From Staphylococcus shinii (GTDB lineage: Bacteria; Bacillota; Bacilli; Staphylococcales; Staphylococcaceae): a stretch of DNA of 64,000 nucleotides. Shown here one piece after another: positions 11,897 through 53,555 of the stretch (positions within the stretch are counted from its first letter, which is position 1; every line of letters begins with the position of its first letter). Position numbers and translations under genes: made by a program. Location: the NCBI RefSeq assembly GCF_017583065.1, contig NZ_JAGEVL010000001.1, forward strand, positions 434,001-498,000, given 5' to 3'. A model generated the notes under the pieces. The model saw nothing but the letters and a program-made list of their open reading frames with translations, was not told the DNA's origin and did not search any database.

Positions 11897-12140
11897 AAAA
11901 AAAGAACAAGTTCGGAATGCGAACCTGTTCTATAATATATATACAAGTGATGCACTCCATTATTTTAAAATAATGACAGACTCTTAGCTCTTAACCATAA
12001 AGTCCAACGTGTTATAAGCTGCTATTATAACTGTTTCGGCATCTCACCCTTTCAAAATTAGCTGCTAGCAGGCAGGTTCTTCTAATAATTACTAATGATT
12101 GATGCGCCTCATCAAAACCATATTTAATTTTTTGTTTATG
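11897..12140 (-). promoter_or_regulatory. Lysine riboswitch (L box) with terminator
   Basis: Minus-strand leader of lysC. The aptamer begins with TGATGAGGCGCATC near 12116 and closes with GGAGTGCATCA near 11950, and TGATG/CATCA forms the basal P1 stem. The aptamer carries the GAAAGGGTGAGATGCCGAA segment typical of L boxes. It is followed by a terminator with arms AGAACAGGTTCG and CGAACTTGTTCT (11903-11931) plus seven T. Lysine binding should favour termination, so the operon is expressed when lysine is scarce. Confidence 0.93.
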
Positions 12141-40693: not shown

Positions 40694-41194
40694 CTAGGCT
40701 GCTAATTCCCTATATTTTATAGGGGATAAGTATCCTAGTTTTTGTTGAATTCGATTATTATTATAGTTTTTAATGTAATTTTCGACAATATCTATTACAA
40801 TTTGGTTAGAGCTATTGAGCTCATTGTTTATGTAGAAAGTTTCACACTTTAGCGAGGAATGGAAATTTTCTATCGGGGCGTTATCAGCTGGTGTTCCCTT
40901 TCGGGACATACTTCTGATAATGCCTTTTTCTTTGCATAATTGATAGTAAGAATAGGATGTGTAAACACTGTCTTGGTCACTATGTAGTATGCAATTCTCA
41001 GGCATATCTATTTGATTCAATGTATCATTTACTAAGCTTTGACCCTGTTTGTTATCTATTTTATACGCCACAATTTCTCCGTTATAAACATCCAAAATTA
41101 AAGATAAATACAACATAGAGTTGCCGAAAGGTAAATAAGTAATATCAGTTGTTAATACTTCCATTGGTTGGTTAGCTTTAAACTGTCTTTGCAA
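40694..41194 (-). pseudogene. IS3-family transposase, catalytic (rve) part
   Basis: A 166-codon fragment holding the retroviral-integrase-like core. The DDE residues appear in TTDITYLPF, LHSDQDSVY and PIENFHSSLK. The N-terminal DNA-binding half is in another frame upstream (41264-41536). It continues to the C-terminal LGYLSPIKYRELAA end. An intact transposase would read through both parts. Confidence 0.85.
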
Positions 41195-49845: not shown

Positions 49846-50937
49846 ATGAAACAAATACTTTTCGTTGGCCTAGGCCTAATCGGCGGCAGTCTAGCGAGTA
49901 ATTTAAGATACTATCATAATGATATAGAAATTACAGCATTTGATGCTGATACATCTCAATTAGATAAAGCTTTATCTATTGGTATCATTGATTTTCAATC
50001 GACAGACTATAAATCAAGCGTCGAAAATGCAGATATCATTATATATGCAACACCCGTACAACAAACAATAAAATACTTACAAGAATTACCAAGCTATCAA
50101 TTAAAGAAAAATGTTATTATCACAGATACTGGTAGTACAAAATCAACGATTCAACAGTATGAACAATTTCTTTTAAAATACGGTATTCACCTTATTGGTG
50201 GCCATCCAATGGCTGGTAGTCATAAATCTGGTGTATTAAATGCAAAAAAACATCTGTTTGAAAATGCTTTTTATATACTCGTGCATAATGAACCAGCTAA
50301 TGATCTAGCTTTTGAAGAAATCCAAGATCTATTAAAAACAACTGATGCTAAATTCATTTCAACAACTGCAGAAGAACATGATTTTGTAACTGGTATCGTT
50401 AGTCACGTCCCTCATATTATCGCTTCAAGTTTGGTTCATTTAAATGCTCAACATGTAGGTGATTCTGCTTTAGTGAAAACATTGGCTGCGGGTGGTTTTA
50501 GAGATATCACTAGAATTGCAAGCAGTAACCCAATTATGTGGCGTGATATTACAGTTGAGAATAAAGACACTATATTAAGCATCCTAAAGGAATGGAAAGA
50601 TCAAATGGGTGATGTTATATCGTTAATTGAGCGTAATAATGCTGAAGACCTCCACGCTTTCTTTAATGATGCTAAAATTTATCGTGATGAACTTCCCCTT
50701 AAACAACAAGGAGCGCTTTCCGTGGAGTATGATCTATATGTCGATATTCCGGATAAACCAGGTATGATTAGCAAAGTGACAAACATTCTGAGTTTACATA
50801 ATATTTCTATAAGCAACCTTAGAATTTTAGAAGTTCGCGAAGATATATACGGTGCATTGCGCATTAGTTTTAAAAACCCTGAGGATCGTAAAGCTGGTGC
50901 TGAGGCACTCAATGATTTTGATACTTATATTGATTAA
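49846..50937 (+). CDS. tyrA: Prephenate dehydrogenase
   Basis: A 363-residue enzyme that oxidatively decarboxylates prephenate to 4-hydroxyphenylpyruvate for tyrosine. The NAD motif is [10 protein letters not shown] near the N terminus. The active-site histidine is in [14 protein letters not shown], and a helical dimer domain follows. A C-terminal ACT domain (about residues 295-363, [21 protein letters not shown]) implies amino-acid feedback. ATG 49846 is chosen because AGAGGTGA lies about 8 bases upstream. It has its own terminator. Confidence 0.95.
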
Positions 50938-50953
50938 TATATGAAATTTTATA

Positions 50954-51005
50954 AGTGGGAGTATGAAATCATTTTTGATAAATTGGATTTCATACTCCCA
51001 CTAAT
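50954..51005 (+). terminator. tyrA terminator
   Basis: AGTGGGAGTATGAAATC and GATTTCATACTCCCACT form a perfect 17-bp stem, 16 bases past the stop codon. Confidence 0.8.
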
Positions 51006-51050
51006 TTAATAGTTTAAACAGCGGTTTTTATGTTTATCTGAGTTATTGCT

Positions 51051-51160
51051 CATGCATAAGCCCCCAGTAGAATTTTTCTTGGAATACAAGCGTTTCTACG
51101 CTTATATAAGAATTACTAATTTTCATGACATGAAAAAGTAGTTCTATAGAGAAGTAGAAC
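51051..51160 (+). repeat. Structured intergenic repeat, copy C
   Basis: Begins with TCATGCATAAG like copies A and B. Hairpin 1 is ATACAAGCG/CGCTTATAT-like (about 51084-51107). Hairpin 2 pairs AGAATTACT with AGTAGTTCT and TTTTCATG with CATGAAAA (51109-51145). The end ATAGAGAAGTAGAAC matches copy B. The arms differ in sequence from the other copies but keep pairing, so structure seems conserved. Confidence 0.55.
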
Positions 51161-51161
51161 T

Positions 51162-52424
51162 TTACATTTTATGCCCTGCCATAAGACCAAGACGACCATG
51201 TTTTGTACCTGCCTCTGTATATGATACTGCTTTAGATACAATTCCTCGTCCAAATTTTCGATGTAACGCATCTATGGTTTTAGCTAGCTTTTCATTTCTT
51301 TTTCTTTCATACTCATCAATGAATAAATTCAATTGTCTGTCTTTCTCATCGATAAACTGGGTTAATGAAATACTTACTGTACGGAATAATGCATGATGGT
51401 CACATAATTTATCGGCAAAACGCTCAACTACTTTATACATATTATCTTCAAGATTTGTTGGATCTTCTAACGTATATTGTTTACTTATACTTCCTTCATC
51501 ACTATATCCAAATGAAAAATGAATCGTCTTAGCCAATTGATTTCTCCCTCGAACGCGGCTAGCGACATCCTCAATCAATTCGCGCATAACTACTTTGGCT
51601 TCGCTGTAGCGATAATCTCTCATGAGTATTTGACTCTTACAAATAGATGGATTCATCACTTTATATTTATCTCTTACTCTACTTTGGTCAATACCATTTG
51701 CATGTAAATGTAAATCGATACCAATGACACCTAAGTCTCGTTTTAAATACGCGTGTGGATAATGTGCTAGATCACCAACAGTAAAAATTCCTCTTTTATT
51801 CAATTTAGCTTCTGTTCTTCTACTAATCCCCCAAAATTTGCTGAGCGGTTGAATTGGCCAAAGCTTTTTAGGTACATCTTGATAACGCCATTCTGCAATT
51901 AAACTATCGTTATGTTTGGCTTCTATATCCATTGCAATTTTACTCAACAACATATTTGAACCTATACCGATTGAACAATTAATACCTGTTGCTTCTTTAA
52001 TTTCCATTTGTAATTTTTGACAGAATGAAGGCACCGTACTACTAAATCTATGATAGCTATTCGTAACATCCATAAAAAATTCATCTATACTATATTGATG
52101 CAAGTCTTCTGGTGCAATATATTGCAATGCAATTTTTGATATTGCTATAGAAACTTCCAAATATTTTCGCATACTTGGATTAATTATATAAATATCGTTT
52201 CTATGTGGTATTTCAAATAATCTAGATCCAGTTTTGATACCTAATGCTTTTAGTGGTCCTGTGGCAGCTAACACAACTGAGCCTTGTCTTTTAGTATCAG
52301 CAACCACTGCTAATTTTTCAGTCATAGGGTCTAATCCCTTTTGAATACAAGATACACTCGCAAAAAAACTCTTTTGATCTATACACAATACATCTCTTTC
52401 TTCTACTAGATTATAATCATACAT
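51162..52424 (-). CDS. uvrX: Y-family DNA polymerase (UvrX/ImpB-MucB-SamB type)
   Basis: A 420-residue translesion polymerase related to B. subtilis UvrX/YqjW. The palm motif LCIDQKSFFASV replaces the usual DMxxFFA, and the catalytic pair is in YSIDEFFMDV. Fingers, thumb and little-finger regions are present, without a clear beta-clamp tail at the end. ATG 52424 follows GGGAGGTTGTTTGAT. A TTG at 52433 is too close to that site. Two LexA boxes upstream show SOS induction. It would permit mutagenic bypass under DNA damage. Confidence 0.9.
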   Translation of the reverse strand: MYDYNLVEERDVLCIDQKSFFASVSCIQKGLDPMTEKLAVVADTKRQGSVVLAATGPLKALGIKTGSRLFEIPHRNDIYIINPSMRKYLEVSIAISKIALQYIAPEDLHQYSIDEFFMDVTNSYHRFSSTVPSFCQKLQMEIKEATGINCSIGIGSNMLLSKIAMDIEAKHNDSLIAEWRYQDVPKKLWPIQPLSKFWGISRRTEAKLNKRGIFTVGDLAHYPHAYLKRDLGVIGIDLHLHANGIDQSRVRDKYKVMNPSICKSQILMRDYRYSEAKVVMRELIEDVASRVRGRNQLAKTIHFSFGYSDEGSISKQYTLEDPTNLEDNMYKVVERFADKLCDHHALFRTVSISLTQFIDEKDRQLNLFIDEYERKRNEKLAKTIDALHRKFGRGIVSKAVSYTEAGTKHGRLGLMAGHKM

Positions 52425-52460
52425 ATCAAACAACCTCCCTCAATTAACTCTATTATATAC

Positions 52461-52501
52461 GAACACTTGTTCTTAATCAACAACAATAAGAACAAGTGTT
52501 C
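52461..52501 (-). promoter_or_regulatory. Twin LexA (SOS) boxes in inverted arrangement
   Basis: GAACACTTGTTC (52461-52472) and GAACAAGTGTTC (52490-52501) both fit the Gram-positive SOS consensus GAAC-N4-GTTC. They are reverse complements of each other, and the match extends to 15 bases on each arm. They lie 37 bases before the uvrX start and 74 bases before the tautomerase gene, so LexA could control both directions. Confidence 0.85.
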
Positions 52502-52574
52502 TATATATCTTATTTTATAATTTTTAGAATTTTCGTGATATAATATCTTTAAATTAGTTTAGGAGGAATTACAT

Positions 52575-52760
52575 ATGCCAATCGTAAATGTGAAATTATT
52601 AGAAGGTCGTTCAGATGAACAACTCAAAAACTTAGTAAGTGAAGTAACAAATGCAGTTGAAAAAACAACTGGTGCTAATAAAGAGGCAATCCAAGTAGTT
52701 ATAGAAGAAATGAAGTCATCACATTATGGGGTTGCTGGAGTTAGAAAATCTGACCAGTAG
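52575..52760 (+). CDS. 4-oxalocrotonate tautomerase family protein
   Basis: A 61-residue tautomerase. After loss of Met, Pro1 is the catalytic base (MPIVNVKLLEGR). Arg11-type and Arg39-type positions are only partly kept. It forms hexamers in this family. The natural substrate in staphylococci is not known. TAGGAGGAATTACAT precedes the ATG. It lies divergently to uvrX behind the shared SOS boxes. Confidence 0.92.
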   Translation: MPIVNVKLLEGRSDEQLKNLVSEVTNAVEKTTGANKEAIQVVIEEMKSSHYGVAGVRKSDQ

Positions 52761-52900
52761 TATAAACCGTTCTATTACTAGAATATGGCTTTACCTTGTC
52801 TAAAAGTAAAAATTTTACAATAAAAAGCGCGAGACAGAAATCTAATTTATTTAAAATTATTTCGCCTTCTCATCTCTAGAGATAAAAGCTTTCCCTGAAC

Positions 52901-53010
52901 TCATGCATAAGTCCCACTAGCTCTTAAAAAGCGGAACACCTGAGTAAGTACTCAGGTGTAAGAACCACTAACTTAATAAATTAAGTGTGTTTCTTCAGAT
53001 AAGTGGGGTT
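52901..53010 (+). repeat. Structured intergenic repeat, copy A
   Basis: Starts TCATGCATAAGTCCCACT. Outer stem AAGTCCCACT with AGTGGGGTT (wobble pairs). Hairpin 1 is ACACCTGAGTA/TACTCAGGTGT (52936-52959), a perfect 11-bp stem. Hairpin 2 spans 52961-52994 with ACTTAAT/ATTAAGT at its top. It is followed 20 bases on by copy B. Confidence 0.7.
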
Positions 53011-53031
53011 AATGATTACTTGAGCTAAAGC

Positions 53032-53140
53032 TCATGCATAAGTCCCACTAACTCAATAGCGGAACACCTGAGTAAATACTCATGTGTAATAACCACTAAC
53101 TTAATAAATTAAGAGTGGTTATTTAGAGAAGTGAGACTTT
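53032..53140 (+). repeat. Structured intergenic repeat, copy B
   Basis: Same layout as copy A. Outer stem AAGTCCCACT (53040-53049) with AGTGAGACTT (53130-53139). Hairpin 1 is ACACCTGAGTA/TACTCATGTGT with one mismatch. Hairpin 2 is AATAACCACT/AGTGGTTATT topped by ACTTAAT/ATTAAG. It ends just before the promoter of the toxin-antitoxin locus. Confidence 0.7.
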
Positions 53141-53220
53141 ATTGTATATATACAGATGATATAATAATTAAGTCGCCTATCTCTCAGGCGTCAATTCGAC
53201 GTAGAGAGGAGGTGTATTAT

Positions 53221-53313
53221 TTGTTAATCTTTTTCGTTCACATCATCGCGCCAGTCATCAGTGGCTGCGCCATCGCATATTTTACTTACTGGCTAAGTAA
53301 ACGCGATAGATAA
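53221..53313 (+). CDS. Fst-family type I toxin (small membrane peptide)
   Basis: A 30-residue peptide starting at TTG 53221, with GAGAGGAGGTG about 7 bases upstream. It has one hydrophobic helix (FFVHIIAPVISGCAIAYF) and the basic tail YWLSKRDR, the classic pattern of Fst/holin-like toxins of the pAD1 par type, which insert in the membrane. The leader folds CGCCT with AGGCG, and the loop CTCTC is complementary to GAGAG just before the ribosome site, as expected for translational masking. The -10 element TATAAT is at 53160-53165. The antitoxin RNA lies on the other strand. Confidence 0.82.
   Translation: MLIFFVHIIAPVISGCAIAYFTYWLSKRDR
53222..53238 (+). repeat. Direct repeat, toxin-start copy
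   Basis: TGTTAATCTTTTTCGTT, identical to 53388-53404. In par loci such repeats flank the shared terminator and let the antitoxin RNA pair with the toxin translation start. Confidence 0.85.
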
Positions 53314-53343
53314 TTAAAAGGCGACAATAGCCAACACCAAAAA

Positions 53344-53377
53344 AATCCCCCTCACTATGACAGTAGCGAGGGGGATT
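53344..53377. terminator. Shared bidirectional terminator of the toxin-antitoxin locus
   Basis: AATCCCCCTCACTA and TAGCGAGGGGGATT pair with one mismatch around TGACAG, with A-rich DNA on the left for the minus-strand T run. It ends both convergent RNAs. Confidence 0.85.
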
Positions 53378-53387
53378 GGTGTATTAA

Positions 53388-53404
53388 TGTTAATCTTTTT
53401 CGTT
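53388..53404 (+). repeat. Direct repeat, antitoxin copy
   Basis: Second exact copy of TGTTAATCTTTTTCGTT. It supplies the 5' end of the antisense RNA. Confidence 0.85.
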
Positions 53405-53410
53405 AAATAT

Positions 53411-53440
53411 ATTATAACATCATACTGAGTAATAATGCAA
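53411..53440 (-). promoter_or_regulatory. Promoter of the antitoxin RNA
   Basis: TTGCAT and TATAAT with an 18-base gap on the minus strand. The consensus -10 fits the strong constitutive antitoxin expression expected in this class. Confidence 0.7.
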
Positions 53441-53555
53441 AAAAATTCACCAGTTCTATACTTCTTACTAGGCATCTTTTAATCGGACAGAGACTAATGA
53501 AATATGATAAAAGTGCTGCATTACTTCTTTGTTTCAAACTTATATAACAACAAAA

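Follow-up and report, generated by a model that had tools for sequence, protein, structure and literature searches.

A mostly intergenic family of two-hairpin repeats in Staphylococcus, with stems that may be kept paired at the DNA level

Purves et al. (PMC3532100) describe a STAR motif and a start signature, GTGGGACAGAAATGAT, and record S. saprophyticus ATCC 15305 as being without the motif; the conserved 5' region of STAR motifs is reported to recruit ribosomes (PMC13009471). The repeats described below, which occur in a 64-kb stretch of DNA (the window) and elsewhere in its own genome (G000; 3.02 Mb, 21 contigs), share with STAR an intergenic and clustered arrangement, tandem expansion, locus-specific variants, and, near some units, a motif resembling the start signature; they differ in being without the GC-rich 14-bp motif, in having a unit of 64-68 bp with two covarying hairpins, and in being abundant where STAR motifs are absent.

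EFAR inserts into stem-loops, and Efa-1 is probably the same element. The published account of Efa-1 of Enterococcus faecalis is of an adjacent, intergenic stem-loop pair (PMC2267715), and EFAR has been classed as a MITE (PMC3733652); the likeness to our family is one of description, two adjacent intergenic stem-loops, and matches to our covariance model (R1) were confined to Staphylococcus in the genomes searched. REP/BIME sequences and GTAG-tagged REPs are likewise short palindromic repeats that often lie near coding regions, and the GTAG REPs often supply the TAG stop codon of flanking ORFs (PMC3733652). The family differs from REP/RAYT systems in that G000 has no Y1 transposase gene (PF01797), and an IS200/RAYT partner was rejected on that ground. 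BOX elements of Streptococcus pneumoniae are modular, with a variable number of middle modules, folded, and over-represented between convergent genes (PMC3049150); the likeness is again one of description alone, and BOX differs in its boxA and boxC ends. Sta-1, Sta-3, and Sta-4 of S. aureus are families of repeated stem-loops, 99-136 bp long and labeled I in their source (PMC2267715), and, judged from the descriptions, one of them may overlap our family or STAR. No description of the family was found in the literature covered, which took in few subscription papers and, for PMC2267715, neither figures nor supplements. The family is real and of the REP/BOX/STAR kind, and it brings several scattered features of staphylococci under a single anatomy: repeats in S. 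xylosus, S. cohnii, and their relatives, STAR-adjacent units in other species, and an S. aureus typing marker.

Anatomy and distribution of the unit

The sequence TCATGCATAAG begins three stretches of the window, at 51051, 52901, and 53032, as a first-pass annotation of this DNA had noticed. All three out-fold dinucleotide shuffles on both strands, with z scores of -3.14, -3.55, and -6.18 for the RNA fold of the plus strand (all better than the shuffles) and of -5.21, -5.77, and -7.49 for the DNA fold of the minus strand, and z lies below -3 on either strand when read as RNA; a three-copy folded repeat in the window is more than chance. By its R1 matches, every copy consists of an outer unit with one full inner unit nested within it (Table 1). 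The architecture proposed in the annotation for all three copies, an outer stem enclosing two hairpins, is predicted at 52901 and 53032 but not at 51051, where the predicted fold has no outer stem and the outer arms match at AAG/CTT only. The differing but paired hairpin arms that it quoted are real if its copies A, B, and C are those at 52901, 53032, and 51051, although its coordinates were listed in another order.

The gene names tyrA and uvrX are those of the first-pass annotation, and the TTA at 51162-51164, in the resident unit's left-over 3' arm, is the stop codon of the minus-strand uvrX ORF. The other neighbors are genes that we take to be tautomerase-like and Fst-like, the latter name being backed by an Rfam fstAT match. 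A separate 25-bp inverted repeat follows tyrA at 50946-51010, with arms AAGTGGGAG...CTCCCACTAA that resemble the unit arms in reversed order, and the Fst-like type I toxin-antitoxin locus follows the third copy at 53221-53362 (minus strand).

Table 1. Positions of repeat features in the window and of orthologous sites with matched changes
Feature	Position	Strand	Basis
Outer (resident) unit of tyrA-uvrX copy: hairpin 1, linker, degenerate 5' arm of hairpin 2	51030..51079	+	R1, 23.9 bits
Inner full unit of tyrA-uvrX copy: hairpin 1 AAGCG/CGCTT, hairpin 2 AAGAATTACT/AGTAGTTCTA	51080..51150	+	R1, 54.0 bits
Left-over 3' arm of resident unit	51149..51164	+	Window sequence
GAGACAGAAATC...TTTCGCCTTCTC, like the STAR start signature GTGGGACAGAAATGAT	52831..52871	+	Window sequence; signature from extract of PMC3532100
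Outer unit of second copy, hairpin 1 weak	52887..52929	+	R1, 16.5 bits, E 0.12; predicted fold
Outer stem of second copy, CCCACT with AGTGGG	52913-52918 with 53002-53007	+	Predicted fold
Inner unit of second copy	52932..52999	+	R1, 44.9 bits, two positions unpaired
Outer unit of third copy: hairpin 1 TGAGC/GCTCA, 5' arm AAGTCCCACT	53012..53058	+	R1, 36.4 bits
Inner unit of third copy: hairpin 2 TAACCACT/AGTGGTTA	53060..53127	+	R1, 61.3 bits
Left-over outer 3' arm AGTGAGACTT, closing third copy	53130..53139	+	Window sequence; predicted fold
Matched-change site	C11:78513		Compared with G053 L295 and G083:1778583
Matched-change sites	C15:102005 and C17:74859		Orthologue comparison
Matched-change site, two pairs and rewritten apical stem	C15:318102		
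Matched-change site	G081 L306		Compared with G083:2220866

A pattern search of G000 that allowed one mismatch yielded 14 matches, and from these and the matches in other genomes a unit of 64-68 nt (typically about 68) emerged. It comprises a leader, A.GGA..AC; a small hairpin 1, often TGAGC/GCTCA; a fixed linker, TGCATAAG; and a larger hairpin 2 with arms that are variable yet paired. Hairpin 2 reads AAGNNNNACTAA-apical stem-AAGTN'N'N'N'CTTTA, its lower arms, AAGNNNNACT and AGTN'N'N'N'CTT, flanking an apical stem of variable sequence and an asymmetric bulge, with AA opposite A. In several genomes the units form head-to-tail arrays with a period mostly of 64-68 and, in a few, of 47, and the variable letters are common to the units of one array in the arrays inspected. 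One array of five units (L032, G077:C1:874352-877372) lies about 150-200 bp downstream of 23S-5S rRNA. A CRISPR was rejected because the sequences that separate the repeats of an array resemble one another, and a short in-frame ORF (ATG CAT AAG NNN NAC TAA) over linker and stem was rejected because it fails where the linker is without ATG, as well as at 51051. At L001, L002, L008, L034, L050, and L053 there is a longer interspersed repeat, estimated by eye at roughly 350 bp and with several copies close to contig ends, that encloses a unit whose loop is larger, and a right-hand module, a TGATTAAGGCTGGGACAATTAATTTGTCCCAGCC-like hairpin, follows several units (e.g., L065 and L075); this module and the start-signature hairpin suggest larger composite intergenic cassettes.

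The covariation in the double-hairpin unit is overwhelming. A MAFFT alignment (A1) of 26 of the 28 units with closely spaced paired arms, fitted to a 20-pair structure, has 95.1% of its cells paired and 69 double-change cells, compared with 18.3 in shuffles; its rows were chosen partly for paired lower arms, so that helix 2 pairing in A1 is circular and inflated, and the apical helix, which had no part in that choice, has double changes at five of five pairs. The covariance model R1 gave 188 matches with E up to 1e-4 in 88 of 197 loci. The best 150 of these (A2; 127 distinct rows) have 94.8% of cells paired, with 375 double-change cells versus 76.1 in shuffles and at most 88 in slid controls, in an alignment that was chosen by and fitted to R1 and so leans to the structure, with helix 2 pairing inflated, and against shuffles that ignore relatedness. 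Covariation extends to all three helices, which bears out the earlier claim of a repeat family with compensating changes. Certain unpaired letters are conserved as well, namely, G3 (118 of the 127 rows), C8 (124), T24 (122), G25 (125), A42 (126), and A43 (121), and T24 and G25 are linker positions.

The covariance search of staphylococcal genomes and the count of copies per genome that the first-pass annotation had proposed were both carried out. With E up to 1, R1 has 61 matches in G000; with E up to 0.001, it matches 51 of 84 Staphylococcus genomes, at least 978 times in all and up to 58 times in one genome, the high counts being lower bounds since up to 60 candidates were scored per genome. 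No match was found in 24 genomes from other genera of the family (47 candidates scored). In a class-wide search, 17 of 398 genomes matched, all from one (Staphylococcus) of 145 genera; this search was shallow, with 12 candidates scored per genome, and missed G033 and G049, which had one match each in the genus search. An exact 21-mer recovered 17 stretches, on contigs of S. ureilyticus, S. pseudoxylosus, S. xylosus, S. edaphicus, and S. cohnii, and plasmid and phage collections gave no match to window positions 52895-53145 at 1e-5. At the gathering cut-offs of Rfam (release 15), the window yields only a lysine riboswitch (Lysine; 11942-12120, minus strand), Listeria rli23 (40793-40890, plus strand), and fstAT, with nothing on the repeats, and five repeat-bearing loci yield rRNA matches only. 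At a relaxed threshold the repeats give Plastid-psbA-2 at 22.6-24.8 bits (cut-off, 55.8) and MicX at 17.9 bits (cut-off, 75). Nothing credible thus falls on the repeats at either threshold, and an Rfam identity was rejected, in agreement with the earlier failure to recognize a named RNA family.

Gene context and the level at which stems are matched

Genomic position was analyzed for 44 of the 61 matches in G000 (the rest, 13 close to contig ends and 4 that were weak, being set aside), 61 of 61 in G083, and 34 of 40 in G080, which form 34, 30, and 20 clusters, respectively, relative to ORFs of 70 aa or more that were called mechanically. In G000 and G083 together, 61 of 64 clusters lie outside such ORFs (the other three overlap one), as do all 20 in G080, against a background in twelve G083 blocks of 15.0% of 70-nt windows being ORF-poor. 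When one-strand clusters with a neighbor of at least 80 aa are counted, the gene on the 3' side faces the unit with its stop codon in 23 of 31 cases in G000 (p 0.011) and 20 of 27 in G083 (p 0.019), and the 5' side is even (17/32 and 13/27). Fisher's test of the 3' versus the 5' side gives p 0.12 for G000, 0.093 for G083, and 0.013 for the two pooled, the two genomes having loci in common. These figures are weak evidence for a preference of the unit's 3' end for a facing stop codon in G000 and G083. Of 43 facing genes, 16 have their ends no more than 20 nt from the unit, the CTTTA of the unit holding the stop codon in several; three nonfacing genes start within that distance, and the nearest facing gene on the 5' side lies 54 nt away.

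When the sites are read along the facing gene, part of them have the large hairpin starting at the stop codon or a little beyond it, and in an mRNA this hairpin would lie at the 3' end, where it could shield the transcript or delay the release of ribosomes. The family may accordingly be read as a structured RNA, transcribed from the facing gene and kept by selection as a folded 3'-untranslated region that serves as an exonuclease barrier, a terminator, or a protein site. This is the strongest of the alternatives that we weighed, and we consider it unlikely, if by no means negligibly so. It would account for the hairpins that begin at or near stop codons, for the conserved unpaired letters beside covarying helices, and for the folding scores of both strands read as RNA, but the stop-codon polarity is absent from G080 (4 of 11), and internal array units are mostly without the outer 3' arm: the full set of four outer pairs is seen in 72 of 87 single units of A2, in 8 of 14 terminal ones, and in 2 of 26 internal ones, whereas the inner set of four is complete in 81 of 87, 14 of 14, and 23 of 26, respectively, in a count that takes gaps as unpaired and in which terminal status depends on the units among the best 150. 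Nor do terminators favor it, as only one of six terminator-like matches in window 50900-53500 falls in a unit (52959-52936, minus strand) and shuffles average 1.0, and the units were rejected as terminators there.

The composition of the pairs also argues against selection on RNA. The 2,404 cells of A2 comprise 2,252 Watson-Crick pairs, 27 G.T, and 125 others, including 36 A.C, and G.T, at 1.2% of standard pairs, is not commoner than A.C (binomial p 0.31). Since G.T on one strand is A.C on the other, the balance of 27 and 36 gives no sign of wobble tolerance on either strand. The 19 tRNAs of G000, by contrast, have 26 G.T among 420 marked pairs (Fisher p 8e-9 versus the units), the marking covering standard pairs only and the control being a single RNA class; in the fixed stems of the 15 tRNAs that were parsed, there are 13 G.T and 1 A.C in 255 cells. 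Stem matching is therefore likely, as far as sequence comparison can indicate, to be kept at the DNA level rather than by RNA selection. The suggestion in the first-pass annotation of selection on structure is borne out as regards the pairing itself, but the scarcity of G.T and its balance with A.C point to DNA-level maintenance rather than to an RNA.

We suggest, as a mechanism, that one arm is copied onto the other by template switching during replication, which would leave the stems paired, and that copy number per site probably changes through tandem and nested duplication. The whole reading, of mostly intergenic two-hairpin DNA repeats of Staphylococcus with stems maintained by template switching and copy number altered by tandem and nested duplication, commands about half of our confidence. 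Its bolder component, that stems are rewritten and rematched by template switching in replication, with compensatory evolution in hundreds of copies without RNA selection, is offered tentatively, as somewhat more apt to be wrong than right. Matched (compensated) changes in place were found at five orthologous sites (Table 1); one-sided, uncompensated changes occur too, for example at C16:152034, G053 L292, G083:2204805, and one pair of G083:2220866. The asymmetric bulge holds its polarity in nearly all A2 rows, so that there is no sign of the loop inversions that certain template switches should produce. Template switching has been proposed as a source of multibase compensatory changes, and its role in maintaining short stems has been called less clear (PMC8794818). 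DNA-level maintenance is the most interesting and the least settled claim that we make about the family. If the template-switching reading is true, the family would be a natural multicopy test of template switching in the creation and maintenance of hairpins and a warning that covariation by itself does not prove a functional RNA.

History of the loci

The 3.6-kb tyrA-uvrX-tautomerase-fst stretch has a DNA match in 84 of 84 genomes, and all three protein genes occur together in 20 of 20 loci compared, with a tyrA-uvrX gap of 1.7-4.3 kb in some. Between tyrA and uvrX there is one unit in G081, G082, G083, and G053 (G082 equals G083 there), relative to which the inner unit at 51080-51150 in G000 is a nested extra; the unit is degenerate in G057 and G069, and G009, G034, G047, and G077 have none. 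Next to the tautomerase gene there is a single unit in G082 and in G083, there are two nested pairs in G000, and in G081 a truncated unit runs into the fst locus; G053 has neither the repeat nor most of the fst locus, the two having been lost together. On a wider scale, G083 has a cluster at the corresponding place for 17 of the 34 in G000. The 17 others include 11 that were sought there, of which 10 were aligned and C14:57204 was without a match in the blocks compared; at least 7 of the 10 hold a partial or degenerate unit by eye, R1 matches being present at two, and at C11:519831 the unit is absent from G083. The G000 and G083 loci compared thus look old and mostly inherited.

A MITE-like element that is currently mobile, with a transposase acting in trans, fits this history poorly, and we hold it to be quite improbable. 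Tens of copies per genome, the additional G000 unit at tyrA-uvrX, and the inverted pairs seen in 8 of 20 G080 and 11 of 30 G004 clusters are what such an element might leave, but half of the G000 clusters have their counterparts in place, the further sites in G083 show remnants rather than clean empty sites, and no target duplication was recognized by eye in the aligned sites. For the one family of transposases considered, Y1, the gene that G000 is without is present in 19 of 51 genomes with the repeat and in 13 of 33 without it. The mobile hairpin element envisaged in the first-pass annotation is thus upheld as to dispersal, which the copy number makes evident, but not as to present movement or, in G000, a Y1 transposase gene. 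Under the preferred reading of DNA repeats altered in place, some mobilizing activity may have spread the family in the past, and it would now be mostly inherited.

STAR neighbors and a typing marker

The STAR motif (14-bp, GC-rich, as TNTGTTGNGGCCC) has no exact match in G000, and at least one STAR motif was found in 28 of 84 genomes of the genus. A start signature upstream characterizes a minority of unit clusters: a signature-like motif lies within 260 nt upstream of 5 of 34 clusters in G000, 4 of 30 in G083, and 2 of 20 in G080, compared with 2 of 542, 0 of 476, and 0 of 354 background windows, respectively, and when one mismatch is allowed, the G000 and G083 clusters number 8 and 4 and the background windows 2 and 1. 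In G080 (L185 and L188) and G004 (L315 and L317), inverted unit pairs stand between the signature and a STAR sequence. Of the 30 unit clusters of G004, 14 have a STAR motif no more than 300 bp away (mean of 0.2 and maximum of 3 in 2,000 random placements), and a unit lies equally close to 14 of the 25 STAR loci listed, which cover 47 of the 49 motif positions. The first-pass annotation had allowed that likeness to STAR would tell against its view; the genome of the window has no STAR motif, whereas in other species many units are neighbors of one. That the unit is merely a STAR repeat under another look, as the shared neighborhoods and start signatures in G080 and G004 and the STAR-like array expansion and locus-specific variants (PMC3532100) might suggest, is scarcely credible, since TNTGTTGNGGCCC is absent from G000, G053, G081, G082, G083, and G025, which nonetheless have 30 to 58 R1 matches each, and the unit departs from STAR in sequence, period (64-68 bp), and fold.

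One array of the family coincides with a published marker. Primers for a 64-bp VNTR, Sa1291/SIRU13, are given in Table 1 of PMC2825195, where it is published as "intergenic," without a family or a fold in the extract available. Both primers match exactly on either side of a unit array of period 64 in G004, at one site (L112, L334, and L338), and at one site in G066 (L029 and L107); of ten VNTR primer pairs compared with the loci, SIRU13 alone matched both sides. The flanking of the array by SIRU13 primers suggests that G004 is S. aureus or a close relative. SIRU13 is built from these units and represents a single array of the family, distinct from the copies in the window. STAR can also occur without the unit, as in G042, which has 271 STAR motif matches and no R1 match.
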